A stretch of DNA of 38,932 nt from Acholeplasmataceae bacterium. Lineage in GTDB: Bacteria > Bacillota_I > Bacilli_A > Acholeplasmatales > Acholeplasmataceae. The translations under genes were made by a program, and so were the position numbers. Location: the NCBI GenBank assembly GCA_030603805.1, contig JAUVXD010000013.1:1-38932 (forward strand). Direction: 5' to 3'. This document shows positions 4,447 through 24,937 of this stretch, one piece after another (position 1 is the first letter of the stretch; every line of letters starts with the position of its first letter). The notes under the pieces were generated by a model. That model did no database searches. It was not told where the DNA came from and worked only from the letters and a program-made list of their open reading frames with translations.

Positions 4447-5748
4447 TTAGATTAATCCGACGATGAGTGCGACAACTGCAATCGCACCACCACTAATCAG
4501 TACATAACGCATATTGCCTTTAATGACATCAAAAATTGAAATCTTAAACCCTTCAGACAATGCTGCAACATTAATTTGTACTGGGCTAATTTGTGTACCT
4601 AAACCTACAGAGATTGCAATCAGGCCAAAGGCTAATGGTGACAATCCTGGAATCAGTGATAATGTTGGTAATATGAGCGTCAATACACCTGCTGCAAATG
4701 CACCTGAGGGTATAGCAATCACAAATGCAAATAGACATGCCACAAAGGTAACAATCCAACTCGGAGCACGTCCTACAAGCGCAGCAAGTTCATCGAAAGT
4801 CCCTAAGAAACCAATCATATTAATGAAACCTAAGAATATACCAACACCAAAGAGTGTTGTTAAAATGTATCTAGATCCATCAATTAAGTTTTCACTCACT
4901 TGATTAGGTTCAGTCTTGCAGAAAATGACACAAAGAATGGCTGCCACTAAAACATTGATGAAAGGTACTAAGAAGGGCACTGGAAGTAATTGGTTTATTT
5001 TTCCACCTAAAATCACAAGTACCAAGAATGTTAATGCAGGAATAACACGCAACCATAAGGATTTCGTATCCATACCTTCAAACTCGTTTGTTGCTTTTTC
5101 ACCTTGTCTAATCATATTGCCTTTTTTATATACACCCCAAAATGCTAAACCAGCTCCAAGAAGATAGACAATGATTGTAAAGGGTAACATCATATTCGCA
5201 AAATTACCTACTTCCATCCCAGCAGCTGTTGCAGTAAATGCTGTTTCAGTCGACGCAGGTGAGGTTGTAAAACCAACAGCTGTAACGATTGCCATTGCAG
5301 CAACAACTTCGGGTAAGAATCCAACAGCAGCTGCCATTAATGGTGCAATAACCATAGTATTACCAGCACCCATACCTGCCATATAGGTTGCTAGACCTTG
5401 AACTAAAACGATTGCAGCTGCCAAATAAGCGATTTTACCTTTAAGCACACGATTAAGTGCTTCAATTAATGCTTTTATACTACCTGAACGTGCTATCATA
5501 ACGGCTCCAGCTGCATAAATCACTGGTGCCAAATATAGAGAAAGCATATTTCTCACACCAACATTCACAACCAAGTTGTTAATGTCTAAAGGTTTAATTC
5601 CAGTTTCAAGTGTTCCTGTTGCTACTAAAATCCATGAAACAATTATCGCAAGAATACCACCAACCAAACCAGCAACGAGCATGTGTTTTTTTCTTATGAG
5701 TAGAAATAAAATCACTGCCAATGGGAGAATCATTAAAATTAGTTCCAT
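4447..5748 (-). CDS. Ion-transporter-superfamily permease, probable partner of the amidohydrolase
   Basis: A 433-residue integral membrane protein with about 11-12 helices. Two conserved Gly/Pro/Thr-rich halves recall the IT superfamily (CitMHS, DcuC and GntP relatives): GMGAGNTMVIAPLMAAA and TSPASTETAFTATAAG in the first half, IPSGAFAAGVLTLILP and GTQISPVQIN in the second. Members usually move organic anions in symport or antiport. It begins 23 bases after the stop of the ring-opening amidohydrolase on the same strand, with AAAGG before the ATG, so the two genes form an operon. I infer that it carries the amidohydrolase substrate or an acidic product; the exact substrate cannot be read from sequence. 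Confidence 0.75.
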   Translation of the reverse strand: MELILMILPLAVILFLLIRKKHMLVAGLVGGILAIIVSWILVATGTLETGIKPLDINNLVVNVGVRNMLSLYLAPVIYAAGAVMIARSGSIKALIEALNRVLKGKIAYLAAAIVLVQGLATYMAGMGAGNTMVIAPLMAAAVGFLPEVVAAMAIVTAVGFTTSPASTETAFTATAAGMEVGNFANMMLPFTIIVYLLGAGLAFWGVYKKGNMIRQGEKATNEFEGMDTKSLWLRVIPALTFLVLVILGGKINQLLPVPFLVPFINVLVAAILCVIFCKTEPNQVSENLIDGSRYILTTLFGVGIFLGFINMIGFLGTFDELAALVGRAPSWIVTFVACLFAFVIAIPSGAFAAGVLTLILPTLSLIPGLSPLAFGLIAISVGLGTQISPVQINVAALSEGFKISIFDVIKGNMRYVLISGGAIAVVALIVGLI

Positions 5749-5771: not shown

Positions 5772-6875
5772 TTATTTTTTTATAATAACAGCAATCGGTC
5801 CGCCACCGTCTGGTCCTTGGTGCTCAGCACCTCCAGAAATATAGACCATCGGATCTTGGACAACTGCTGCAATAACTGCATTAACAACCGCTCTTGCTTG
5901 ACGCGTGTGGTTGATATCTGAATCTGTGAGCATGGTATGTCTTCTTCCACGAACCTCACCATATGAACTTGCTTCTGCTTTTGCAAGAACATTAACGATT
6001 TGCTTACACTGCTCATCTGTAGGTAGGCGGTCAATCTTCATACCAGCAGATTCTAAAGCTTCAATGACTGCTTTTAAATCGATAGCATCCTTCATAACAG
6101 AATGTCCAATCGATAAATTGGAAGCAGATTGGTAACTATTTCCCATCACAATAATTTCACAATTCATCAATTCGATTCCTGCTGAAGTGGATGCAACATT
6201 TGAATAAAGTGACCAATCTTTGCAGATAACATCTTGTGTGACGAGTTCTTTTTTGATTTCACCTAGAGCAACTGCAACTCCCAGTGCACTAGCACCGCGA
6301 GAAAATCCCATTGATTTATAGGTATCTTCAACCACTACTTTTTTTCCTCTAGCCTTTGCATCTTTAATACGTTCTGATGTCAATAAAGGACACTTTATTT
6401 GGACAAAGTGAACATCTTTCGGATCACTTAAACCAGCTTCTAACATGAGCTTTTTGACCACTCTTTCAACTTCAATCACCATATCCACAGTACCTATTTC
6501 TTCTGGTTTAAAATCTCTTGTAAATCCAGAAGCTGCTACAAGTCTCTTTTCTTTTGAAGCCTCCTGATTCACATCTTTTTTAACAAAAATGGTTGCATGT
6601 GGAGACATGACCCCTTCGGTTCCACCTGACATAACAAAAGCAACACGATGCATCACTTCTTCATCAGAAAGTTTCAAGTGCTTTGTTAAGGATGTCCTAT
6701 AGGCAAATGTAGCTAATGCGCGTGTGAAGTCATTCACACACCCATTGCCTTCTGTTTTACCTAAGACTGCGATTATTTCTTCGGGTTGAATGGTATGGCT
6801 TTGGATGAGTTTTTCAAACGATCTTAGATCATCTGGAGATGACATAGGGATGCGAAAAACTTCAATTTTCTGCAT
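5772..6875 (-). CDS. Ring-opening amidohydrolase (cyanuric acid hydrolase/barbiturase family)
   Basis: These enzymes hydrolyse a C-N bond of a small N-heterocycle: cyanurate to carboxybiuret (biuret plus CO2) or barbiturate to ureidomalonate. The start is the ATG at 6875; the GTG three codons earlier sits in the ribosome site AAGGAAGTG. At 367 residues it matches the family. All three repeats with their Lys/Ser pairs are visible: K40 (LGKTEGNG) with S83 (MSGGTEG), K161 (VQIKCPLL) with S229/S231 ([11 protein letters not shown]), and K299 (AKAEAS) with S347 ([14 protein letters not shown]). The choice between cyanurate and barbiturate is open. It is co-transcribed with the following permease. 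Confidence 0.93.
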
Positions 6876-6912
6876 ATGATTCACTTCCTTTTCTTTTTAT
6901 AAGATTATTCTA

Positions 6913-6926
6913 TCAAAGCGCTTTCA
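6913..6926. promoter_or_regulatory. Catabolite-response-element-like box
   Basis: Read on the minus strand, TGAAAGCGCTTTGA differs by one base from the ideal palindromic cre (TGAAAGCGCTTTCA). It lies 38 bases before the amidohydrolase ATG, where CcpA binding would block transcription. CcpA itself is not in the window. Confidence 0.55.
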
Positions 6927-7052
6927 TTTAGTATATGTAATTTTACACAAATAAAAAGCCTTCTGAATGTGAATAAGTGACAATTCACTGTTTTATCGGT
7001 ATTTATGTGTAAAAATTATGATTTTCTTAAGAGTCAATCCTTGATAAAAAAA

Positions 7053-7069
7053 GTAGGTCTTAGACCTAC
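7053..7069 (-). terminator. Terminator after the TerB-like gene
   Basis: The minus strand shows a 7-bp stem (GTAGGTC/GACCTAC), a 3-base loop and TTTTTTT, 12 bases after the stop. Confidence 0.85.
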
Positions 7070-7080
7070 AGAAGTTTCGC

Positions 7081-14198: not shown

Positions 14199-14822
14199 TT
14201 ATTTCGTTCCAAAAAGACGATCTCCTGCATCGCCTAATCCAGGGATGATATAGGCATGATCATTTAAATGCTGATCTAGACTAATTAAATAGATCTCTAC
14301 ATCAGGATGCTTATCTAAAATACGATTCACACCCTCTTGAACACCAATCAAAGAGAGCACCTTAATTTCTTTAACCCCTTTTTCTTTTAAAAATTCAATG
14401 GTTTTCATGATACTACCACCAGTTGCTAATAAAGGATCTAAAATGTAGGTCATTGCATCTTTAATATTAGGTGGGAATTTCGCATAGTAGACTTGTGGAA
14501 CCAATGTTATTGGATCTCTATACATACCAACATGTGCAATTTTAAGGGAGGGTATCAGATTTTGAATGCCTTGTGTCATCCCTAATCCCGCCCTTAATAT
14601 GGGTATAATCACGATATCTTTAATCAGTTGATATCCAACTGTTTTTGCCATAGGAGTCTCAATTTCAATTTCTTTCAAACCTAAGTCTCGAGAGATTTCA
14701 TAAACCATCAGTGCAGAAAGTTCTTCTACAATTTCTCTAAACATCTTTGTACCACATGATTGATCTCTAATAATCGATAATTTATGCTTCATCAGTGGAT
14801 GATTAAAAACATGTAATCCCAT
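14199..14822 (-). CDS. upp: Uracil phosphoribosyltransferase
   Basis: Makes UMP from uracil and PRPP in the cytosolic pyrimidine salvage pathway. The 207-residue length is standard. The PRPP-binding loop is YILDPLLATGGS (about 126-137), and the uracil-binding end is YIIPGLGDAGDRLFGTK at the C-terminus. CAAGGAGG stands before the ATG. It follows the carbamate kinase gene on the same strand after a U-tailed hairpin. It may therefore be expressed partly by readthrough from the heterocycle operon or from a promoter I cannot see. Its position may be chance, since upp is a common housekeeping gene. Confidence 0.97.
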   Translation of the reverse strand: MGLHVFNHPLMKHKLSIIRDQSCGTKMFREIVEELSALMVYEISRDLGLKEIEIETPMAKTVGYQLIKDIVIIPILRAGLGMTQGIQNLIPSLKIAHVGMYRDPITLVPQVYYAKFPPNIKDAMTYILDPLLATGGSIMKTIEFLKEKGVKEIKVLSLIGVQEGVNRILDKHPDVEIYLISLDQHLNDHAYIIPGLGDAGDRLFGTK

Positions 14823-14837
14823 AGATTCCTCCTTGAA

Positions 14838-14860
14838 AAAAGGCGATTTTCTCGCCTTTT
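14838..14860 (-). terminator. Terminator at the end of the carbamate kinase operon
   Basis: A 9-bp stem AAAAGGCGA/TCGCCTTTT, which overlaps the stop of the carbamate kinase gene. The minus strand continues with TTCAAGG. It separates the operon from upp and could act as an attenuator. Confidence 0.75.
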
Positions 14861-15788
14861 ATGATTGATAAATAATCGTCCCTGCCTTACCTTTAACAGC
14901 AAGTGCAGCTTCTTCTAGACTTGCAATAATCGCTTGTCCATTTTTATTGGATTCAACAAACTGGACAGCTGCAACAATTTTAGGTTCCATACTTCCTTTA
15001 CCGAACTCTGAAGTTTCAATATAGTGTTTTGCTTCTTTAACAGAAAGTTTAGAAAATTCAAGTTCATTAGGTTTTCTAAAGTTCACAGAAACACGTTTAA
15101 CAGCCGTTAAAATGATAAACACATCGGCTAAAATGAGTTCAGCAAGTTTCGCACTTGAAAAATCTTTATCAATAACTGCTGCAACACCTTTTAATGTGTC
15201 TCCTAAGACGACTGGGATGCCACCACCACCTGATGCAACAACCACAGTATCCTTTTCAAGTAAATGTTTAATCACATTTTTTTCAATAATATCGACTGGT
15301 AGTGGACTTGGTACAACAAAACGATATCCTCTACCAGAATCTTCTACCATAGGTAATCCAGTTTCTTTAACGAGTTTTTCTGATTCTTCTTTAGTATGGA
15401 ATCTACCAATTGGTTTTGTTGGATTTTTAAATGCAGGATCTTTAGGATCAACCACAGTTTGAGTCACAATGGTTGCCACATCCTTTTTAATATGTCTTTC
15501 TTTAAGCGCATTAAAAATCGCATTTTGCAAATGATATCCAATATAACCTTGACTCATCGCGCCACATTCAGGAAGCGGCATCTCTGGTATCGTTAATTTG
15601 ACTTGATGTGCCGTTTCAAATGCACTTTGAATCATACCCACTTGTGGACCATTGCCATGAACAACAACAACATGATGTCCTTGCTCAACAAGGTCTGCTA
15701 CACTATGTGCTGCATGTTTTACCAATTCTAATTGCTCACTTGGATTGTCACCCAAAGCATTACCGCCGAGTGCAACTAAGATTTTCAT
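14859..15788 (-). CDS. arcC: Carbamate kinase
   Basis: Converts carbamoyl phosphate plus ADP to ATP and carbamate, which decays to NH3 and CO2: a substrate-level energy step. The 309-residue length and motifs are typical: VALGGNALG (residues 4-12), VVHGNGPQVG, PECGAMSQGYIGY, VVASGGGGIPV and DKDFSSAKLA. Its ATG overlaps the TGA of the DUF1116 gene (ATGA). No arginine deiminase or ornithine carbamoyltransferase is near. Carbamoyl phosphate therefore most likely comes from the FdrA/DUF1116/DUF2877 complex encoded just upstream, as in E. coli, where the equivalent kinase is called AllK. Confidence 0.97.
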   Translation of the reverse strand: MKILVALGGNALGDNPSEQLELVKHAAHSVADLVEQGHHVVVVHGNGPQVGMIQSAFETAHQVKLTIPEMPLPECGAMSQGYIGYHLQNAIFNALKERHIKKDVATIVTQTVVDPKDPAFKNPTKPIGRFHTKEESEKLVKETGLPMVEDSGRGYRFVVPSPLPVDIIEKNVIKHLLEKDTVVVASGGGGIPVVLGDTLKGVAAVIDKDFSSAKLAELILADVFIILTAVKRVSVNFRKPNELEFSKLSVKEAKHYIETSEFGKGSMEPKIVAAVQFVESNKNGQAIIASLEEAALAVKGKAGTIIYQS

Positions 15789-17206
15789 CGTTTCTCCTCC
15801 TTAATGTGTTTAACAAAATCCTCCAATGCTTTTTCAAAGCAAGCCATAGGTGGGTGAACAAGACCAGCGCCGACTTGACCAACACCTGCTTCTTTATGTG
15901 CCATACCTGTGTTAATGATAGGCAAAATACCTGTTTCAATCACTTTTAACATGTCAATCCCACATGCTGTTGGCATAAAATCTAGAGGTGGTAATGTGAA
16001 AACTTGATGTCTATCTTGTGCAATTTCATGCATGGATTTTGAATAATCAAATGCTTGTTTAACAACACCACCTACAAACTGAACAATCGCTGGTGCGCCA
16101 CCCATTGCAAATCCTCCAATACCAAAGGTTTCAGTAATGGCACTATCTCCAATATCTGGTGCTGCATCATCTTCACTAAATCCTGGAAACATCAATCCTT
16201 TGACATAATTGGCAGGTGCTTGATACCAATCATTTGAGTGTGAAAATTGTATACCAAAATCGACACCATTACGACTCATCGCTGTAAGTACAGTTGAATA
16301 GGGTATATTTCTTGCTGAATCTAATGCGAGTTTGCAATATGGCATGGATAAATTTAAAAAGTAATGTTCATTTTTTCTAATAAAATCAAGTGTTTCAGCT
16401 TTTTCTTGTTCACTAAATGTCGTTTGAATAATGTATCCTGCAATTTCTCTTAAGAAAAGTGCAGATGATGCCTTATTCCGATTATGACATTCATCACCCA
16501 TATGAAGCGCTTGAGTAATCAAACTCTTCACATCGATACCGCCTGACAAGATTAATGCTTCATTCATCACAGGTGCAAACGTCTTTTCAATCCATTTCAA
16601 GCGATTGATGACTTCTTGAGAATTTGCCCCATATCTTAAAACTTTGCCCAATCCTTCATTAATGGTGCAGTAACTATAATTTCGATCCACAATATTATAG
16701 AGCACATGCACAGGCATTGATGGTGAAATAATGCCTGCCATTGGTCCAACAGCGTCATGATGATGCGCACTATCAAAAATAATGGCACCAGATTCAGCAA
16801 GTTTAATCGCTTCTTTTTCTGTTTTAGCTAGACCTTCATAAATGAGTGCACCAATAATGGCACCCTTCATCGGACCAGCCATGTGTTTAAAAGCTATCGG
16901 AGGACCAGCATGTAAAATGGTATGTTTGGTCATATTGGGAATGACATCAAATGCTTTTTTAACAGCAATCAGTCTACCTTCTGCTTTTTTAATCTTTTCA
17001 ACAGCTTTTCGATTTCCTTCATCGATTAAAGCTTGATAAGGCTTTATTGCACTGAGCAATGATAAAAGCTTCGTATTGCCTGATGCTGGAGGATTCCATT
17101 CTAAATGTGTATAAGTCACATGTTGTTTTTCAAAATCTTTCTTAAAACTTGGTGATCCTACATTAACGACCTTAATGGGCGAGTTAAATAAATCTTGGAT
17201 GCTCAT
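15785..17206 (-). CDS. allG: DUF1116 protein, AllG-like subunit of a transcarbamylase
   Basis: A 473-residue protein of the YlbE/DUF1116 family. In E. coli this family member (AllG) is one of three proteins needed for oxamate transcarbamylase. Family segments seen are HAGPPIAFKHMAGPMKGA (about 94-111), DSAHHHDAVGPMAG (about 144-157), GDECHNRNKASSALF (about 232-246), and DFGIQFS followed by KGLMFPGFSEDDAAPDIGDS. Conserved His, Asp and Glu residues suggest a catalytic or metal role, though the mechanism is not established. Its ATG overlaps the fdrA TGA by ATGA. I am sure of the family; the actual substrate here may differ from oxalurate. Confidence 0.92.
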   Translation of the reverse strand: MSIQDLFNSPIKVVNVGSPSFKKDFEKQHVTYTHLEWNPPASGNTKLLSLLSAIKPYQALIDEGNRKAVEKIKKAEGRLIAVKKAFDVIPNMTKHTILHAGPPIAFKHMAGPMKGAIIGALIYEGLAKTEKEAIKLAESGAIIFDSAHHHDAVGPMAGIISPSMPVHVLYNIVDRNYSYCTINEGLGKVLRYGANSQEVINRLKWIEKTFAPVMNEALILSGGIDVKSLITQALHMGDECHNRNKASSALFLREIAGYIIQTTFSEQEKAETLDFIRKNEHYFLNLSMPYCKLALDSARNIPYSTVLTAMSRNGVDFGIQFSHSNDWYQAPANYVKGLMFPGFSEDDAAPDIGDSAITETFGIGGFAMGGAPAIVQFVGGVVKQAFDYSKSMHEIAQDRHQVFTLPPLDFMPTACGIDMLKVIETGILPIINTGMAHKEAGVGQVGAGLVHPPMACFEKALEDFVKHIKEEKR

Positions 17207-18738
17207 GATTTCACCCCTTCAACGAGTTTTGCAGCAATAAGTGCTGCGTGTGCATTTGTTTTTGCAACAAGGATTCCTAAACTTTTGAGTCTTTCTTCTG
17301 AAGATGCTAAGTTTTGTGCGTCTTTATCAGTACCACAGACATAAGCCACAATACTTAAATGTCGTTGTTCTTTTTTTGCAATGTCTTGAGCTTCTTTTAG
17401 TGCCTCAAGTGTGACACCGATAGGATCTTCATGTGAGCCTAATCCAAGCTCAAAATCAAGTAAGAGAACAGCAGTTTCAGGTAGTTTAGCCTCATGTAAA
17501 ATGCGTTCTAACCTGATGGTAGGTTCAATCATTGGATGTGGTTTCCCTAAAGTAAAAATATCATCACCTAAATCCACTAAATTATGACCTGAACTCACCA
17601 AAGGATTCTTCATTTTTTCAACTTCTTTTTTTGCAACATTTGAAGTTAAATCTTTAACATGAGGTCTTAAGATAGAAAGTGCTTCAGCAGTCAGTGTGCC
17701 ACCACAAAATAAGCCTTTTATTTTGGATTGTGTTGGCTTAAACAGTGCTTTTTCTTTTTGAATCACATGAAGTAGTTCATCATCAATTTGAGTTAAATCA
17801 GGCGTTTTTAATCCTGTAAGTTCGAGTGCTTTAATGGCTGCATCCGTCAAATTGGATACAACATGAACGTTTTTGATGTCAACTTCGTGTTTGGAATCGA
17901 GTAAACACACAACCACTGGTTTCGTGATGTGCTTTAATCTTGAAATGATTTTTTCTAAAACTGTTGGATGTGGTGGTTTACTAATTAAGACAATGACTTT
18001 GGTATCTAAGTCTTGATCAAGTGCATCAATACCTTTGAGCATCATCATGCCTCCAACTGCTTCTGATAAGTCTCTACCACCGACACCAATCGCATGTGTA
18101 ATGCCACCTTTAAACCGGTCAATGATGACTGTTACCTCTTGTAGTCCAGTACCACTTGCAGCAACTAAACCAATGGATCCTCGGCTCACTTGATTAGTGA
18201 AACATAATCCTATGCCACCAATAATTGCAGTTCCACAGTCAGGTCCCATGACTAAAAGATCTTTTTCAACTGCAATCTTTTTTAACTGGATTTCATCTTC
18301 AACACTGACATTATCACTAAAAAGCATGACATGAAGTCCATGTTCTAAAGCTTTGTAAGCTTCATGTGCCGCATAAATACCAGGAACACTGATGACTGCG
18401 ATATTCGGTGCAATTGCATCAAAAGCCTGATGAATGCTACGATAAACTGAAGTACCTTCATCACTTTTTTTAGTTTTCGCTGATAGACGTTCAATAACCA
18501 AATTCGACCAATCCTTGATCTCCTGATCAAATTCAGCAGCAAGAATCAAATCATTAGGTTCAGCTGAATCTATATCAATGTGATATAAGCCTACAGATTT
18601 AATCATTTCTTTATTCATGTCAGTACCCATCAACATGACCAAATCTTTAAAACCTAATTCTTTTTTTAAACTGACACTCGTACTCATAAGTGTTACAGAA
18701 TCAAAATAACTGTTTTTTAATACTTTATAGTCTTTCAT
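17203..18738 (-). CDS. fdrA: FdrA (AllF-like), acyl-CoA-synthetase-fold subunit of a transcarbamylase
   Basis: 511 residues from the ATG at 18738, which has AGAGGTG 8 bases upstream; a frame opening 9 codons earlier has no better site. FdrA has the fold of succinyl-CoA synthetase alpha subunits, with repeated CoA-binding-like domains. It shows VMGPDCGTA (163-171), VAASGTGLQEV (192-202), GVGGRDLSEAVGG (218-230) and a later LFCGGTLTAEAL. In E. coli the homologue is AllF, required with AllG and AllH for phosphorolysis of oxalurate to oxamate and carbamoyl phosphate. Here it lies between the DUF2877 and DUF1116 genes with a 13-base gap upstream and ATGA overlap downstream. Involvement with a different ureido substrate is inferred from context. 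Confidence 0.95.
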   Translation of the reverse strand: MKDYKVLKNSYFDSVTLMSTSVSLKKELGFKDLVMLMGTDMNKEMIKSVGLYHIDIDSAEPNDLILAAEFDQEIKDWSNLVIERLSAKTKKSDEGTSVYRSIHQAFDAIAPNIAVISVPGIYAAHEAYKALEHGLHVMLFSDNVSVEDEIQLKKIAVEKDLLVMGPDCGTAIIGGIGLCFTNQVSRGSIGLVAASGTGLQEVTVIIDRFKGGITHAIGVGGRDLSEAVGGMMMLKGIDALDQDLDTKVIVLISKPPHPTVLEKIISRLKHITKPVVVCLLDSKHEVDIKNVHVVSNLTDAAIKALELTGLKTPDLTQIDDELLHVIQKEKALFKPTQSKIKGLFCGGTLTAEALSILRPHVKDLTSNVAKKEVEKMKNPLVSSGHNLVDLGDDIFTLGKPHPMIEPTIRLERILHEAKLPETAVLLLDFELGLGSHEDPIGVTLEALKEAQDIAKKEQRHLSIVAYVCGTDKDAQNLASSEERLKSLGILVAKTNAHAALIAAKLVEGVKS

Positions 18739-18751
18739 CAATGAGTCACCT

Positions 18752-19546
18752 CTACATACATCCACAAATAAAACCAGTTAAGATACCAGCACCGCTGGTT
18801 GAACCGAGTTTTAAAATGGATCTTGCGCCTTCTATGTTGTTATGGATAAATAAATCTTCAATCATTTGAATAAAAATCTCCGGGTATAATCTTAAAAATG
18901 TATCTTCTAAATTTTGAGCACTTAACTTACTTGTTTTCTTCTGAGCCTCACTCACTAATGACTCAATCCATGGTAAAGTTTTACCCACAGTATTTAGTCC
19001 TAAAATGAACCCTGTGAGGATATCATCACCTAGTGGCGTGAGCCCCATTCCTAAGCCTAAAATAGATAATGCTGATGGTAATCCTGGTGCTGCTAAGAAA
19101 ACACCGATTTGATCAAACTGAAACTTTAACCATGGATTATCTTGTTGGTATCGATAGAAGTTTTCAGTGTGATGGTTTTCAACATATGCCTTCAATTCCT
19201 TAAATGTATGATAAGATGCTGAATTCATGCGATATGTCATCACATAAGGATCATATTTTTTAATCTTTGATTCATCAATCTTCATGTCGAATAGAGGATG
19301 TGAAATCACACCCTCATGTCGATAAATGAATATATCCCCAACTTTAAAATCTATTGTGTTAAAGGATATCTGATCTTCAATAACAATATGGTGTTTCCCA
19401 TGACCCACATGATGACCAATGGTAATTATTTTTTTGTTCACCATGATGTGCATGGTACGCGCATAAATCCCATAAATGATAGCACCATGGTTTTTGATTT
19501 CATCTAGAACAGAAGCATCTATTGATAAAACATTAGTGGTTTTCAC
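18752..19546 (-). CDS. allH: DUF2877 protein, AllH-like subunit of a transcarbamylase
   Basis: 264 residues of the YlbF/DUF2877 family. The hallmark segments are GLGMGLTPLGDDILTGFILG (about 165-184) and the C-terminal LGSTSGAGILTGF. In E. coli this protein (AllH) is the third part of oxamate transcarbamylase. The start is GTG with only a weak AGAAAG site, but it overlaps the end of the upstream permease gene by 14 bases, so translational coupling is likely. No ATG exists near that would keep the N-terminal region. No membrane segments. Confidence 0.9.
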   Translation of the reverse strand: MKTTNVLSIDASVLDEIKNHGAIIYGIYARTMHIMVNKKIITIGHHVGHGKHHIVIEDQISFNTIDFKVGDIFIYRHEGVISHPLFDMKIDESKIKKYDPYVMTYRMNSASYHTFKELKAYVENHHTENFYRYQQDNPWLKFQFDQIGVFLAAPGLPSALSILGLGMGLTPLGDDILTGFILGLNTVGKTLPWIESLVSEAQKKTSKLSAQNLEDTFLRLYPEIFIQMIEDLFIHNNIEGARSILKLGSTSGAGILTGFICGCM

Positions 19547-21059
19547 TTTCTACATTTTCATGCTTTCTATAGAAGTTCATGATGACAAGCACCAATGCAA
19601 CTGCAACATAGCCTAATGCGACTTGCCATCCTGTTGCAAAACCTATTTGTGGTGCATGTAAGAAACCAAAGAAAGCAAGCACCGCTGTAATGAGCGCATA
19701 AACAGCAGAAACTAAATATTTCTTATCAATAATGAAAATGACGATTGTTGCTAACATCATACCTACTAAAATATCTCCTGCAGCTAGTCTTTCCCAACCT
19801 AAAAGTGGAATACCTGTATTTGCTAACGCTTGATAATCTAGCGTACCTCCTGATGCAGCAATGGCATTTTTAATGTTTAATGTCACAAAACCTGCAATTA
19901 AAGGAATAAAAGATAGTGCAACTGCTGGCATATGTTTCTTTTCAGTTGTTGCAAATGCTTGTGTGGTAATGACCATACCGATATACATCAAAATGGGTAA
20001 TAATGCAACTAGTGGAATAATGGTTAATATGAAGTTCATAAAGCCAAGGAATGCTAATAATAATATGGCAACACCAGTGACCCATGAATATCCAATTCTT
20101 GCGCCAGTAGACTTCCATCCTGGATGTCCAATGTAAATAATCGTTGGAAATGGTGAGCCAAGGAAAGAACCTAAAATGGTCAGACCTGCTGGAACCATCA
20201 TCGCTTTAGGCACATTATAAGATTCACCCGATGCTTCTGCGGATTCCAAATTATCTAAGCTTTCCATGAAATCGTAGATTGCAAGTGGAATTGCTGCTGG
20301 TAAGAAAGGTGCAATTTGTGCAAACCCACGACCAAATAAGTTGATAGCAAGATTTGGTAAACTTAAACCTACATTGCTTAAAGATGTCCCTACTGCTTGT
20401 GGATCCATATAACCTGTAACCCAAGCTAAAATGGTACCAATCATAATCGCAAATGCACCAGCTGGAATATTAAAAGGCATTTTTTTAAGTGCAAACCATC
20501 CCACAAAGATAATCGCTAATGAAGTTAATCCAATATAAGGTGTTGTAAAGACTTGACCTGCTGGATTCATCGCAATATATGTAATTGCAAGACCTGCAAG
20601 TGCACCTAACATCGCTGCTCTTGGAATATATTTTTTAATATAAATCCCGACGAATGCACCTGTAGCCATAATAATACCTTGAATAAAATTCCAAACAACG
20701 CCTGCAGCCCATGCTACAGTCCAGTCACCGGTTGCTGCAAAGACAACAGCAATAACACCGAATGCTACAACAAAGTAGTGAGGAACTGATAAACCATAAG
20801 GCATTGCAGTTACATCACTTTTCTTAGAACGTATTGAAAGTTGTTTCGCTTGTAGAGCTAATATAATACCACCAAAACCAACAGCAATCGCCGTACCTGG
20901 GACGATGCTTCCAAACACGATGTTGTTGGGCATTCCAATGACTAAAAGTAAGCCAGTTGCTGCTAAAAAGTTCGTTAAAACGTTAGAAAATAAACCAAAA
21001 AATCCATTTAAATCGCCTTTGACCCACCAAGGTGTGCCGCCTACTAATTTTTTAAACAT
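19533..21059 (-). CDS. NCS2/AzgA-like heterocycle permease, copy 2
   Basis: A 508-residue membrane protein with about 12-14 helices, of the xanthine/uracil permease superfamily. It begins with WWVKGDLNGFFGLFSNVLTN, then has SDVTAMPYGLSVPHYF, KKYIPRAAMLGALAG, FMESLDNLESAEASGESY and FPTIIYIGHPGWK. The MESLDNLESAEA segment corresponds to the substrate-binding helix region with conserved acidic residues in this superfamily. It is clearly a paralogue of the permease at 21723-23246. A GGGAG site precedes the ATG. The operon context suggests uptake of cyanurate, barbiturate, biuret or another planar ureide-like compound rather than common purines. That is inference. Confidence 0.87.
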   Translation of the reverse strand: MFKKLVGGTPWWVKGDLNGFFGLFSNVLTNFLAATGLLLVIGMPNNIVFGSIVPGTAIAVGFGGIILALQAKQLSIRSKKSDVTAMPYGLSVPHYFVVAFGVIAVVFAATGDWTVAWAAGVVWNFIQGIIMATGAFVGIYIKKYIPRAAMLGALAGLAITYIAMNPAGQVFTTPYIGLTSLAIIFVGWFALKKMPFNIPAGAFAIMIGTILAWVTGYMDPQAVGTSLSNVGLSLPNLAINLFGRGFAQIAPFLPAAIPLAIYDFMESLDNLESAEASGESYNVPKAMMVPAGLTILGSFLGSPFPTIIYIGHPGWKSTGARIGYSWVTGVAILLLAFLGFMNFILTIIPLVALLPILMYIGMVITTQAFATTEKKHMPAVALSFIPLIAGFVTLNIKNAIAASGGTLDYQALANTGIPLLGWERLAAGDILVGMMLATIVIFIIDKKYLVSAVYALITAVLAFFGFLHAPQIGFATGWQVALGYVAVALVLVIMNFYRKHENVESENH

Positions 21060-21079
21060 ACCGATTTTTCTCCCTTAAT

Positions 21080-21742
21080 TTATTTTTTTAAACCTAATAA
21101 CAATTTTTCACTTGTTGTCGTCCAGCCAAATATACCACCTTGTTGATTAATCATGCGAATTGCAGCTTCCTGATCTCTAGGGTCAAATGCTGCTGTACCA
21201 TCTTCAATCATGAGACATTCATATCCTCTATCGTTTGCTTCACGAATGGTCGTATGGACACATACATGTGTCGTGACCCCGCAAAAAATTAGTGATTCAA
21301 TACCTTGATTCTGTAAAATGAGATGTAAATCTGTTTGATAAAATGCACCTTTGCCAGGTTTATCTAAAACGACTTCATTTGGCAATGGTTTAAGTTCATC
21401 GACAATATCATGCCCATATTCTCCACGAATCAAAATTTTACCCATAGGACCATCTTCACCAATGGCAGATGAACGTCTTTTTTTCGCCTTTGGAACATCA
21501 CTTAAGTCCGGACGATGACCTTCTCTGGTATGGATGATAAACATCTTTTTCTCTCGTGCTGCGTCGAGCACTTTTCTCACTGTTGGAATAATCGATTTGG
21601 TTGGTGTAATATCATTTCCTAAAGCTTCTCCAAATCCTCCAGCCTCACAAAAATCACGTTGCATGTCAATGATGATTAGTGCTGTTTTCTTAAGATCAAA
21701 ATCAAAAGTAAACGGTTTTGCTTCAACTTGATAAAGTCTCAT
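21080..21742 (-). CDS. Isochorismatase-fold amidase, biuret-hydrolase-like
   Basis: A 220-residue cysteine hydrolase. The triad is readable: Asp26 (IIIDMQRDF), Lys128 (LDKPGKGAF) and Cys161 (GVTTHVCVHTT). The segments HTREGHRPDLSDVPKAKKRR, GPMGKILIRGEYGHDI and REANDRGYECL are the pattern I know from biuret hydrolases, which turn biuret into allophanate and NH3, and from their closest relatives. Other members act on ureidoacrylate or N-carbamoylsarcosine, so the substrate is not certain. The start has AAAGGAG 8 bases upstream and overlaps the previous permease gene by 20 bases. It sits between two permeases and upstream of the FdrA set, so its product probably feeds phosphorolysis. Confidence 0.88.
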   Translation of the reverse strand: MRLYQVEAKPFTFDFDLKKTALIIIDMQRDFCEAGGFGEALGNDITPTKSIIPTVRKVLDAAREKKMFIIHTREGHRPDLSDVPKAKKRRSSAIGEDGPMGKILIRGEYGHDIVDELKPLPNEVVLDKPGKGAFYQTDLHLILQNQGIESLIFCGVTTHVCVHTTIREANDRGYECLMIEDGTAAFDPRDQEAAIRMINQQGGIFGWTTTSEKLLLGLKK

Positions 21743-23246
21743 CTTTTATTTCTCCTTTAGAGCGATAGTATAGAAAATAACCCATAAATATGATTGCAAT
21801 CAAAACATAGCCAATCGTCATGCCTAAGTTTTGATTAATTCCCACTTGTCCTGCATGAATGATTCCAAAAAAGGTTAAAACTGCTGCAATACCTGATGTA
21901 ATCGTTGCATGAACAAACTTATGATCAATTATATAGACCGCAATCGAACCTAAAATCATCCCTACAATGATACTGCCTGCACCTAAACTCATCATGCCCA
22001 AATAATTAAGTCCAGAGATTTCTAGTAAGTTAAATCCAACAGTTCCTGCATTTGTACCAGCAGCACCTAACGCAATATCAACCGCATTTTTTGTCCAATC
22101 AGCAAGCCAAGGGATAATCGCAAGCACAACTGCTGGTGCATATTTGTGTGAAACTGAGGTAAATGCTTGTGTTGTAATGACAATACCGATATATAAAAGA
22201 ATCGGAAGAATGGCAACCACTGGAATTACATTGAGTAAAACAGAAATCATACCCACTAAAGTTAGAATAAAGAGCACGAGTCCACCGACAAAAGAATATC
22301 CGATTCTAGCTCCAGCTTCTTTCCAACCTGGATGTCCAATAAAGATTGCGGTTGGAAATGGATTACCAAATAGTGAGCCAACAATGGTTGTGACTCCATC
22401 AGCGACCATGGCTTCTTTTGTCGAGTAGTGATCCCCAGCAACGGCTGCGGATTCACAGTTATCTATGGTTTCAAAAAAGTTGTAAATCCCTAATGGAATT
22501 GCACTGAACAAGAATGGTAGGGCACTTTGAAACCCATCAAAATATCTAGTAACACTTGGAACAGGTACTCCTAATTGAACATTTCTAATGCTATCGAGTA
22601 GTGCTGTACCACTCATAAGTCCACTGCTCCACCCAATAATAACCCCAACAATAATTGCAACCAGCCCTGTTGGAATATTGAAAGGCATTTTTACTTTTCC
22701 AACCCAACCAAGTAAAACAATGGCTAATGCAACTAAGCCTATATAAGGCACTGCAAATGAATTAAATGCTGGATTTAAAGCAATATAGGTAATGGAAACC
22801 CCTGCGAGTGAACCAAGCATTGCAGCTCTTGGTAAAATTTTTCTAACTTTCGCTCCAATAAAGCTTCCAATAAGTTCAATAATACCCTCAAGAAGTGACC
22901 ATACTAATCCAGCAGACCATGCGAGATAAGCATTTCCTGTTGCCCAGTAAACTGGACCAATAATTAAAAACACAATTAAGAACATGTGAGGTACTGAAGT
23001 ACCTGCAGGTAATGCAGTCACATCAGATCTTGATTCTTTTCTCGCAAGTTTTACTGCCATAAAACTATAATAAATCGATGAGATGAAAATAGATAATCCA
23101 ACTGCAGGTAGTATTCTACCGTAGACAATATTTCCAGGTAAACCAACAACAACAGATAAAAGACTGGCCATCACTAAGACATTGGTTAAGTTATTGGTGA
23201 AAAGTCCAAAGAACCCATTCCAGTCACTTTTTACGAAATATTTCAT
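21723..23246 (-). CDS. NCS2/AzgA-like heterocycle permease, copy 1
   Basis: First gene of the operon. The ATG at 23246 has a strong GGAGGTG 7 bases upstream, giving 507 residues; the frame opening at 23273 lies over the -10 box and cannot be the start. About 12-14 helices. Motifs match copy 2: DWNGFFGLFTNNLTN, SDVTALPAGTSVPHMF, RKILPRAAMLGSLAG, FFETIDNCESAAVAGDHY and FPTAIFIGHPGWKEAGARIG. At the key helix this copy has ETIDNCESA where copy 2 has ESLDNLESA, so the substrates may differ. Its divergent neighbour is the PucR-type regulator, which probably controls it. Confidence 0.87.
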   Translation of the reverse strand: MKYFVKSDWNGFFGLFTNNLTNVLVMASLLSVVVGLPGNIVYGRILPAVGLSIFISSIYYSFMAVKLARKESRSDVTALPAGTSVPHMFLIVFLIIGPVYWATGNAYLAWSAGLVWSLLEGIIELIGSFIGAKVRKILPRAAMLGSLAGVSITYIALNPAFNSFAVPYIGLVALAIVLLGWVGKVKMPFNIPTGLVAIIVGVIIGWSSGLMSGTALLDSIRNVQLGVPVPSVTRYFDGFQSALPFLFSAIPLGIYNFFETIDNCESAAVAGDHYSTKEAMVADGVTTIVGSLFGNPFPTAIFIGHPGWKEAGARIGYSFVGGLVLFILTLVGMISVLLNVIPVVAILPILLYIGIVITTQAFTSVSHKYAPAVVLAIIPWLADWTKNAVDIALGAAGTNAGTVGFNLLEISGLNYLGMMSLGAGSIIVGMILGSIAVYIIDHKFVHATITSGIAAVLTFFGIIHAGQVGINQNLGMTIGYVLIAIIFMGYFLYYRSKGEIKDETLSS

Positions 23247-23271
23247 CAATGCACACCTCCCTATGCTTCTC

Positions 23272-23277
23272 ATTATA
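23272..23277 (-). promoter_or_regulatory. -10 box of the heterocycle operon
   Basis: A perfect TATAAT on the minus strand, 25 bases before the first permease ATG, with a T-rich, weak -35 region. This suggests that an activator is needed, which fits PucR-type control. Confidence 0.5.
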
Positions 23278-23332: not shown

Positions 23333-23360
23333 TTGTAATTTTTTATAAAGATGCTACAAT
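23333..23360 (+). promoter_or_regulatory. Promoter of the PucR-family gene
   Basis: TTGTAA (23333-23338), a 16-base spacer and TACAAT (23355-23360). The predicted start of transcription falls at the ribosome site, 10 or so bases before the ATG, so the leader is very short. Confidence 0.5.
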
Positions 23361-23377
23361 ATCATCGAGGTGAATCT

Positions 23378-24937
23378 ATGAAAACAACGATTAAAGATTT
23401 ACTTGAACGTGCAATATTTGAGTCCTATGAAATCTTAAGTTCTGCCAATCATTTAGAAAGAAGTTTTGAAAGCATCTCCATCTTGGAAACACCAGACTTT
23501 GAAAATTACATCATAGAAAAAAGTTTGATACTTACAACGTTTTATCCTGTTAAGCAGGACGTTGAAACATTTAAGAAACTTCTTTTTGCTTTAAACAAAA
23601 AAGATACAGCTGGCATTTTTGTCAAAATGAAACGATATATTGATGTCATTCCTGAAGAGATTTTAAAACTAAGCGATCAACTCAATATTCCCATCATTGC
23701 ACTTAATTATGATGCCAATCTTTCTTTGCTTTTTAACAATATACTTAGTGAACTACAGTCCCAAGATTATTCAAATTTTGCATTTGATGCCAATTATTCT
23801 TTGTTCTTAAAACAAGTCTATGAAAATCCTTCAACTAAGACACTCATGCAAATCGTTGAGAAAATTCCTGATCTTGAGTTACTCATTCAAAATTTAGACA
23901 ACAAAACTACGTATGCTTCCCACGATCATTTACTTACCTATTTGAATCAATCTAAGAGTACAAAAAACTTATTTCAACGAATTGGTGATACTCTCTACTA
24001 TTCCGAAGATGTTATCTATGATGAAAAACCAATCTATCATTTTGTGTTCATGGCCAAAAATGACCGAAGACATATCCTTCATAATTACATCGAAATATTC
24101 AAACTCATGATCATTGTTATCCATCAAAAAAAGATTGAAAACACATTAAAACAAAATCAATTCCTTTTAAATTTCATCTCTAATGTTTCATCAAATTATA
24201 CAAACACTCAATTGATTGAAGCCAGCAAGAGATATAATTGGAATGTTATATTTCCAGTCACCTTAGTCTTGTTTTCAATCAAAGAAAATCATAAAAGTGT
24301 ATTAAACCCAAATATGATTGAATACATGCGTACTGTAATGATTAATAAATTTCATCTCAACTCAGACGAACTGAGATATACCATTATTACAGATCAGCTT
24401 CTTTTTATCGTTAATACGCTTAACACACTCAAAATAGATGAAATCATTCAAAATGTCTATCAAACGTTAAAACATAAATATCGAGATATCAGTTTTAAAA
24501 TTACATATTCCAACTTAATTGAAGAAGCTTCTGAAATAGCAAAAAAGTACTTCCAGTTATCGGAAGCACTAGTTCATGTTGAAACGAAAAATCTATCTGT
24601 TGATATTTTTAGAGAAGATCACATAAAAGTACTAAATTTACTTAAAAACATCGATTATATTCATTTGAAAGAATATGTATTTAGTTTGTTAAAACCTTTA
24701 ATTGATTATGAAAAATCAAATAATACACCTTTAATTGACACCTTACATCAGTTCATCGAGTGCAGGTTTAATATTAGATCTACTGCTGAAAAACTCTTTA
24801 TTCACTACAACTCTGTACGGTATAGACTTGATGTCATCGAGTCTTTAGGCTATCATATCACAACAGGCTCTGATGGTTTTTTTGATCTCTATTTTGGACT
24901 CTATCTTTATAGAAACTTTGAACCATCAACTCATTAG
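23378..24937 (+). CDS. PucR-family transcriptional regulator
   Basis: 519 residues from the ATG at 23378 (GAGGTG 5 bases upstream). The N-terminal half (about 1-125) is the PucR-type ligand domain, with SLILTTFYP and the IPIIALNYDANLSLLF strand-helix. A GGDEF-like relic region lies in the middle. The C-terminal helix-turn-helix (about 455-519) reads LIDTLHQFIECRFNIRSTAE, then LFIHYNSVRYRLDVIESLG, as in PucR/CdaR proteins. PucR activates purine breakdown genes in Bacillus. Divergence from the permease-amidase-FdrA operon makes it the likely activator responding to the heterocycle or an intermediate. Confidence 0.92.
   Translation: MKTTIKDLLERAIFESYEILSSANHLERSFESISILETPDFENYIIEKSLILTTFYPVKQDVETFKKLLFALNKKDTAGIFVKMKRYIDVIPEEILKLSDQLNIPIIALNYDANLSLLFNNILSELQSQDYSNFAFDANYSLFLKQVYENPSTKTLMQIVEKIPDLELLIQNLDNKTTYASHDHLLTYLNQSKSTKNLFQRIGDTLYYSEDVIYDEKPIYHFVFMAKNDRRHILHNYIEIFKLMIIVIHQKKIENTLKQNQFLLNFISNVSSNYTNTQLIEASKRYNWNVIFPVTLVLFSIKENHKSVLNPNMIEYMRTVMINKFHLNSDELRYTIITDQLLFIVNTLNTLKIDEIIQNVYQTLKHKYRDISFKITYSNLIEEASEIAKKYFQLSEALVHVETKNLSVDIFREDHIKVLNLLKNIDYIHLKEYVFSLLKPLIDYEKSNNTPLIDTLHQFIECRFNIRSTAEKLFIHYNSVRYRLDVIESLGYHITTGSDGFFDLYFGLYLYRNFEPSTH

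Follow-up and report, generated by a model that had tools for sequence, protein, structure and literature searches.

Which compound feeds an AllF-AllG-AllH carbamoyltransferase in a genome without a recognisable allantoin pathway? The question is raised by a seven-gene operon in an Acholeplasmataceae bacterium, found in the 38,932-nucleotide stretch of contig JAUVXD010000013.1 that was analysed (the window). In transcription order the operon encodes a permease, an isochorismatase-fold hydrolase (IHL), a second permease, AllH, AllF/FdrA, AllG and carbamate kinase. The junctions between these genes are -20, +20, -14, -14, -4 and -4 bp. An initial annotation had described the same seven genes, and their positions and families are confirmed by Pfam and NCBIfam models. 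It had also described ATGA overlaps; overlaps do exist, but the 4-bp ATGA type occurs only at the last two junctions. The features of the operon and its flanks are as follows.

23351-24937, plus strand: PucR-family regulator, divergent, at the head of the operon (PF07905 9.2e-21, PF13556 8.6e-13)
21723-23273, minus strand: permease 1, without a Pfam match, 58% identical to permease 1 of Peptoclostridium acidaminophilum
21080-21742, minus strand: IHL, isochorismatase-fold cysteine hydrolase (Isochorismatase Pfam 2e-49), in its own clade, with the residues FNHFI
19533-21059, minus strand: permease 2, without a Pfam match, a paralogue of permease 1 (45% identity)
18752-19546, minus strand: AllH (DUF2877; PF11392 1.6e-15)
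17203-18765, minus strand: AllF/FdrA (NF004760 481 bits, above the cut-off; Ligase_CoA and CoA_binding domains; homologue of PDB 3dmy)
15785-17206, minus strand: AllG (DUF1116; PF06545 1.5e-90)
14859-15788, minus strand: carbamate kinase (TIGR00746 363.9 bits, cut-off 358)
14823-14858, minus strand: terminator-like hairpin GGCGA-GAAAA-TCGCC-TTTTTT, then RBS-like AAGGAGG, in the interval between the kinase gene and upp, as read from the sequence
14199-14822, minus strand: upp-type gene downstream of the operon, identified by sequence reading

The three subunits of oxamate carbamoyltransferase, AllF, AllG and AllH, are all recognised by family models. AllG is found in 14 of 150 relatives, and the order of the genes is kept in most of these and is identical in the amino-acid fermenter P. 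acidaminophilum DSM 3953, which rules out a chance arrangement. The upp-type gene adjoins the operon in most relatives and is probably outside the pathway. Permease 2 has a predicted fold of the UraA/SLC26 type; the model is moderate (pLDDT 71) and tells nothing beyond the fold.

The window also contains a cyanuric acid hydrolase, AtzD, located 8 kb downstream of the operon on the same strand and followed after 23 bp by a permease.

5772-6884, minus strand: AtzD, cyanuric acid hydrolase (NF052395 551 bits, cut-off 360)
4447-5748, minus strand: DcuC-like permease

AtzD is the only PF09663 protein of the genome, and it keeps the three Ser-Lys dyads and three Arg residues. At the diagnostic position it has Arg, while barbiturase has Gln, and assignment as a barbiturase is rejected on this ground. 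The same residue disfavours ureidomalonate, one of the substrates first suggested for the operon. Neither AtzD nor the divergent PucR-family regulator was part of the initial annotation. Upstream of AtzD, the window shares with three relatives a cre-like element, GAAAGCGCTTT, which was spotted by eye only.

The gene content and linkage suggest that the operon probably breaks down cyanuric acid and triuret-like polyureas by phosphorolysis, with carboxybiuret as intermediate and a yield of ATP. A role in cyanurate and triuret catabolism is well supported. All of the reactions, above all the substrates of AllFGH and the IHL, are ones that we infer. AtzD would open cyanuric acid to 1-carboxybiuret, and the IHL would deaminate triuret or a close analogue to the same compound. 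AllF-AllG-AllH would then shift the terminal carbamoyl group of carboxybiuret onto phosphate, releasing carbamoyl phosphate and allophanate, and carbamate kinase would convert carbamoyl phosphate and ADP to ATP, ammonia and CO2. Allophanate would become urea by decay in these genomes and would be hydrolysed in genomes with AtzF. Although unrelated, the enzymes TrtA and AtzD both yield carboxybiuret (PMC7948467). E. coli AllFGH cleaves oxalurate (PMC11326118), which carboxybiuret resembles except that an NH separates the carboxylate from the carbonyl. The initial annotation had proposed one ATP per ring, an idea that is strengthened by AtzD, which it had not mentioned.

The genes present, their linkage, the residues of the enzymes and the alternatives that are missing can be read from the sequence itself. 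In three relatives (L019, L021 and L023) AtzD and the DcuC-like permease are inside the AllFGH-kinase operon, and homologues of this permease adjoin AtzD in AtzD-type operons. All four AtzD genomes among the 150 relatives of the window also have AllG (p 4.9e-5, shared ancestry ignored). In a wider survey, in which genome contigs were scanned with an AllG alignment, AtzD was found within the operon in Amphibacillus, [Clostridium] ultunense, Sporosalibacterium, Tissierella, Paenibacillus, Rubneribacter and a Lachnospiraceae MAG, a range that spans several unrelated Bacillota and one Actinomycetota. No kinase was recognised near the Rubneribacter operon. In the phylum of Sporosalibacterium (398 genomes), AtzD occurs in 13 genomes and AllG in 60, with 11 carrying both (Fisher p 2.4e-8, shared ancestry ignored). 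As for the AtzD genomes without AllG, one (G377) has the classical set of AtzD, BiuH-type IHL and AtzF instead, and in the other AtzD is no more than a fragment. Related operons are present in many anaerobes. The 8 kb between AtzD and the operon in the window counts against the proposed route.

In several of these genomes the AtzD product has no other recognised fate. No BiuH/TrtA-type protein was found in Amphibacillus, C. ultunense, Sporosalibacterium, Tissierella, Rubneribacter or the Lachnospiraceae MAG (best scores 26-73 bits). The allophanate-hydrolase model has zero matches in Sporosalibacterium, and in C. ultunense and Tissierella it is matched weakly, by general amidases. On these results, AllFGH is the sole recognised fate there of carboxybiuret, or of the biuret formed from it. 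The Lachnospiraceae operon has an allophanate-hydrolase amidase in addition to AtzD, AllFGH and the kinase, and this suits allophanate as the product of AllFGH and not its substrate. Operons of E. coli, Kosakonia and Rhodospirillales have an added stand-alone C-terminal domain of allophanate hydrolase.

The IHL is similar to biuret hydrolase, as first proposed, but at three discriminating positions it is like TrtA and not BiuH. At positions 35, 41, 160, 187 and 205 (TrtA numbering), TrtA has F, N, E, Y and I, BiuH has Y, Y, D, T and V, and the window IHL has F, N, H, F and I. It thus matches TrtA at three of the five (F, N and I), with His for E160 and Phe for Y187. The catalytic residues D24, K129 and C162 and the binding residues E72, K132 and Q202 are kept, and BiuH shares all of them. 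The best NCBIfam model is BiuH (NF050097), with 285 bits against a cut-off of 370, and in a tree the window IHL falls into a separate clade next to TrtA and BiuH. Classification as BiuH is rejected on the score below the cut-off, the residues and the position outside the BiuH clade. Whole-sequence identity is useless as a guide to specificity, since the protein is 53% identical to TrtA and equally so to each of the two BiuHs. Given the separate clade, the His at position 160 and the equal distance from TrtA and BiuH, the substrate of the window IHL is a guess from residues. The same features make it at most a candidate TrtA, which counts against the proposed route.

In other operons AtzD is missing and the sole hydrolase is an IHL, and these sole IHLs have the TrtA-like pattern F, N, H or E, F or Y, and I, with one truncated exception. 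BiuH-type IHLs are found alongside AtzD in L019, L023 and L213 and alongside a TrtA-type IHL in two Nitrospira loci (L116 and L120). Another Nitrospira locus (L109), which ends at a contig edge, has BiuH-type residues. The remaining BiuH-type IHLs accompany the classical pathway, in the same operon or the same genome, and no further contexts were found.

The substrate of AllFGH would be carboxybiuret, biuret or allophanate. Carboxybiuret, which had been listed among compounds to assay, is now favoured, because the IHL is TrtA-like and several AtzD-type genomes lack a biuret hydrolase to make allophanate. For the same reasons allophanate and biuret, put forward in the initial annotation, are not the best candidates.

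A rather unlikely alternative is that carboxybiuret decarboxylates spontaneously and AllFGH phosphorolyses the resulting biuret to carbamoyl phosphate and urea. Carboxybiuret turns into biuret unaided (half-life about 20 min; PMC7948467), which makes biuret a possible true substrate. The scheme accounts equally well for the AtzD-only operons and for the TrtA-type ones that lack BiuH, and the urea that would be its end product accords with the absence of urease from eight of nine genomes tested; the ninth, C. ultunense, has one weak partial match. Urea would therefore be lost by the other eight. Biuret has no carboxylate, however, unlike oxalurate, the known substrate of AllFGH.

The scheme closest to the initial annotation, in which the IHL would act as a biuret hydrolase and AllFGH would split allophanate with phosphate into carbamoyl phosphate and carbamate, is quite unlikely. 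BiuH is the best NCBIfam model of the IHL at 285 bits, and neither AtzF nor AtzE is recognised in the genome of the window, whose one amidase-signature protein falls below the cut-off of both models, with 135 bits against 511 for allophanate hydrolase and 118 against 426 for AtzE. The three AtzD operons with a BiuH-type IHL, an enzyme that would make allophanate, also favour this scheme and count against carboxybiuret as substrate. On the other side are the sub-cut-off score, TrtA-like residues and tree position of the IHL, the several AtzD-AllFGH genomes without a recognisable biuret hydrolase, and the operons with AtzF or its amidase domain beside AllFGH.

Use of imported oxalurate as in E. 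coli, with the IHL and AtzD in a separate pathway, is highly unlikely. E. coli AllFGH does act on oxalurate (PMC11326118), and a 2025 study of nitrifiers interprets co-located biuH and allFGHK in this way (PMC12625717). This reading is contradicted by the repeated linkage in single operons and co-occurrence with AtzD and TrtA-type IHLs. It is also contradicted by the absence of AllD and by the E. coli AllG, which is on a long branch outside the clade of the window. Allantoin genes were sought in the whole genome (99.9% complete) as members of the AllD and amidohydrolase families. No AllD-family protein (PF02615) was found, and the three amidohydrolase-family proteins (NagA, HutI and a third that matches no NCBIfam model) include no allantoinase. 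On the evidence of these two families an allantoin pathway elsewhere in the genome is rejected, and the early observation that allantoinase and ureidoglycolate dehydrogenase are absent holds for the genome as a whole. The least likely explanation is pyrimidine or barbiturate catabolism by a barbiturase and a RutB-like ureidoacrylate hydrolase, which draws on the upp-type gene after the operon in most relatives, the predicted UraA-like permease fold and a Rut-like interpretation of the E. coli version (PMC12928451), but is opposed by the diagnostic Arg of AtzD and its match to the cyanuric acid hydrolase equivalog, by a RutB score of 120 for the IHL against a cut-off of 378, and by the terminator-like hairpin between upp and the kinase gene.

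The classical cyanuric acid pathway is AtzD-BiuH-AtzF, and another is atzDGEHF of pADP-1. The window shares the ring-opening enzyme AtzD with these pathways, which are hydrolytic and give no ATP, while here AllFGH and the kinase replace BiuH or AtzE and AtzF. To our knowledge, the known pathways for cyanuric acid, biuret and triuret are all hydrolytic, and nitrogen is their only yield; cyanuric acid and triuret are regarded as nitrogen sources or pollutants and nothing more. The IHL of the triuret pathway TrtA-BiuH-AtzF (PMC7948467) and that of the window are members of one family, and the window IHL has several TrtA-type residues; the differences are that BiuH and AtzF are not recognised in the genome of the window, whose IHL has His rather than Glu at position 160 and forms its own clade. 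E. coli AllFGH and AllK (PMC11326118) are the same three subunits and carbamate kinase in one operon, with identities to the window of 45% for AllG and 37% for AllF. The window differs in lacking allantoin genes and in having AtzD and the IHL as partners. In addition, a segment that E. coli has at the C-terminus of AllF is found N-terminally in the AllG of the window, where residues 10-55 match it with a score of 83 (shuffled maximum 37). E. coli YahDEFG-I-J is also an AllFGH-kinase set without allantoin genes, but YahD and YahJ take the place of AtzD or an IHL, and its AllG is in a separate clade.

Linkage of an IHL to allFGHK has already been published under another reading. The 2025 paper describes biuH/trtA adjoining allFGHK in comammox and AOA, interpreted as separate triuret and oxalurate routes (PMC12625717), and a 2026 paper interprets the operon of the E. 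coli GR 29 region as Rut-like pyrimidine use (PMC12928451). In their available parts, these papers propose neither the AtzD linkage nor carboxybiuret phosphorolysis. A search of the open-licence literature, which may miss prior art, found no report of an AtzD-AllFGH link or of carboxybiuret phosphorolysis. The E. coli version has an IHL with the exact TrtA residues, AllH, FdrA, AllG and the kinase, together with the stand-alone allophanate hydrolase domain and a cytosine-permease-like transporter. Of 5426 complete E. coli genomes 1543 (28%) carry it, mostly on the chromosome, and it is intact in the laboratory strain BL21(DE3) (NC_012971, 3909249-3916462), which renders the proposal testable.

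The phylogeny of AllG suggests a shared activity. AtzD-linked and IHL-linked sequences interleave in the 29-row clade that holds the window (support 96), and also in a separate 5-row clade (support 100). Since AtzD and TrtA are unrelated, form the same product and have interleaved AllGs, the simplest reading is that a single AllFGH activity serves both front ends. Most of the AllG loci found are in other contexts, chiefly with molybdenum-hydroxylase subunits and a PF04199 cyclase, which counts against the carboxybiuret route. Because of these contexts, AllFGH homologues probably use several substrates, including other acylureas. A broader reading appears evenly balanced between true and false. 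It holds that AllFGH of this clade would be 1-carboxybiuret:phosphate carbamoyltransferases, that cyanuric acid and triuret would be fermented for ATP, and that AllFGH would be a general acylurea phosphorylase. The ATP would come from substrate-level phosphorylation, the organisms would include many anaerobes and a large fraction of E. coli strains, and AllFGH would work with various ring-opening enzymes.

An AllFGH-kinase module without allantoin genes does stand beside a biuret- or triuret-hydrolase-like enzyme, as first described, and the suggested formation of ATP without oxygen is plausible. If the carboxybiuret route is correct, cyanuric acid, biuret and triuret would also yield ATP without oxygen, and anaerobic use of cyanurate would have a genetic basis. 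The three-subunit carbamoyltransferase would gain a defined use beyond oxalurate, and a function would be assigned to an operon that more than a quarter of complete E. coli genomes carry, among them that of BL21.

Operons or clusters for AllFGH, the three-subunit carbamoyltransferase, include the following:

L259:24250-31463 (NC_012971 3909249-3916462), intact AllFGH operon of the E. coli laboratory strain BL21(DE3), flanked by metE and ysgA
L034:4781-12008, yahDEFG-I-J of E. coli
L032:24462-30887, second AllFGH-kinase cluster, on a plasmid

The BL21(DE3) operon encodes a triuret hydrolase (TrtA)-type hydrolase, AllH, FdrA, AllG, carbamate kinase, a stand-alone allophanate hydrolase C-terminal domain, and a permease. 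The yahDEFG-I-J and plasmid clusters lack allantoin genes, and their AllGs form a separate clade of their own.

In one genome (G060) the whole operon is present in two copies, L028 and L029, which are separated by approximately 99 kb and have equal identities to the window genes. Upstream of the cyanuric acid hydrolase gene (AtzD), a cre-like element, GAAAGCGCTTT, was found by eye in the window (6885-7080) and in three relatives with AtzD inside the operon (L019, L021, and L023). Divergent AtzD paralogues that have lost two of the three Ser-Lys dyads are found in L211 and L212, where they adjoin tandem AllG copies; L211 additionally has AllB-like and AllC-like genes. The atzC gene of the atrazine plasmid pADP-1 adjoins a carbamate kinase gene (L035:11489-12448), near which no AllFGH genes are annotated.

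Molybdenum-hydroxylase subunits and a PF04199 cyclase adjoin AllFGH in about 48 of the 150 AllG loci (for example L223, L240, and L241), and some of these loci also have a carbamate kinase. This context represents another, putative use of the AllFGH complex.
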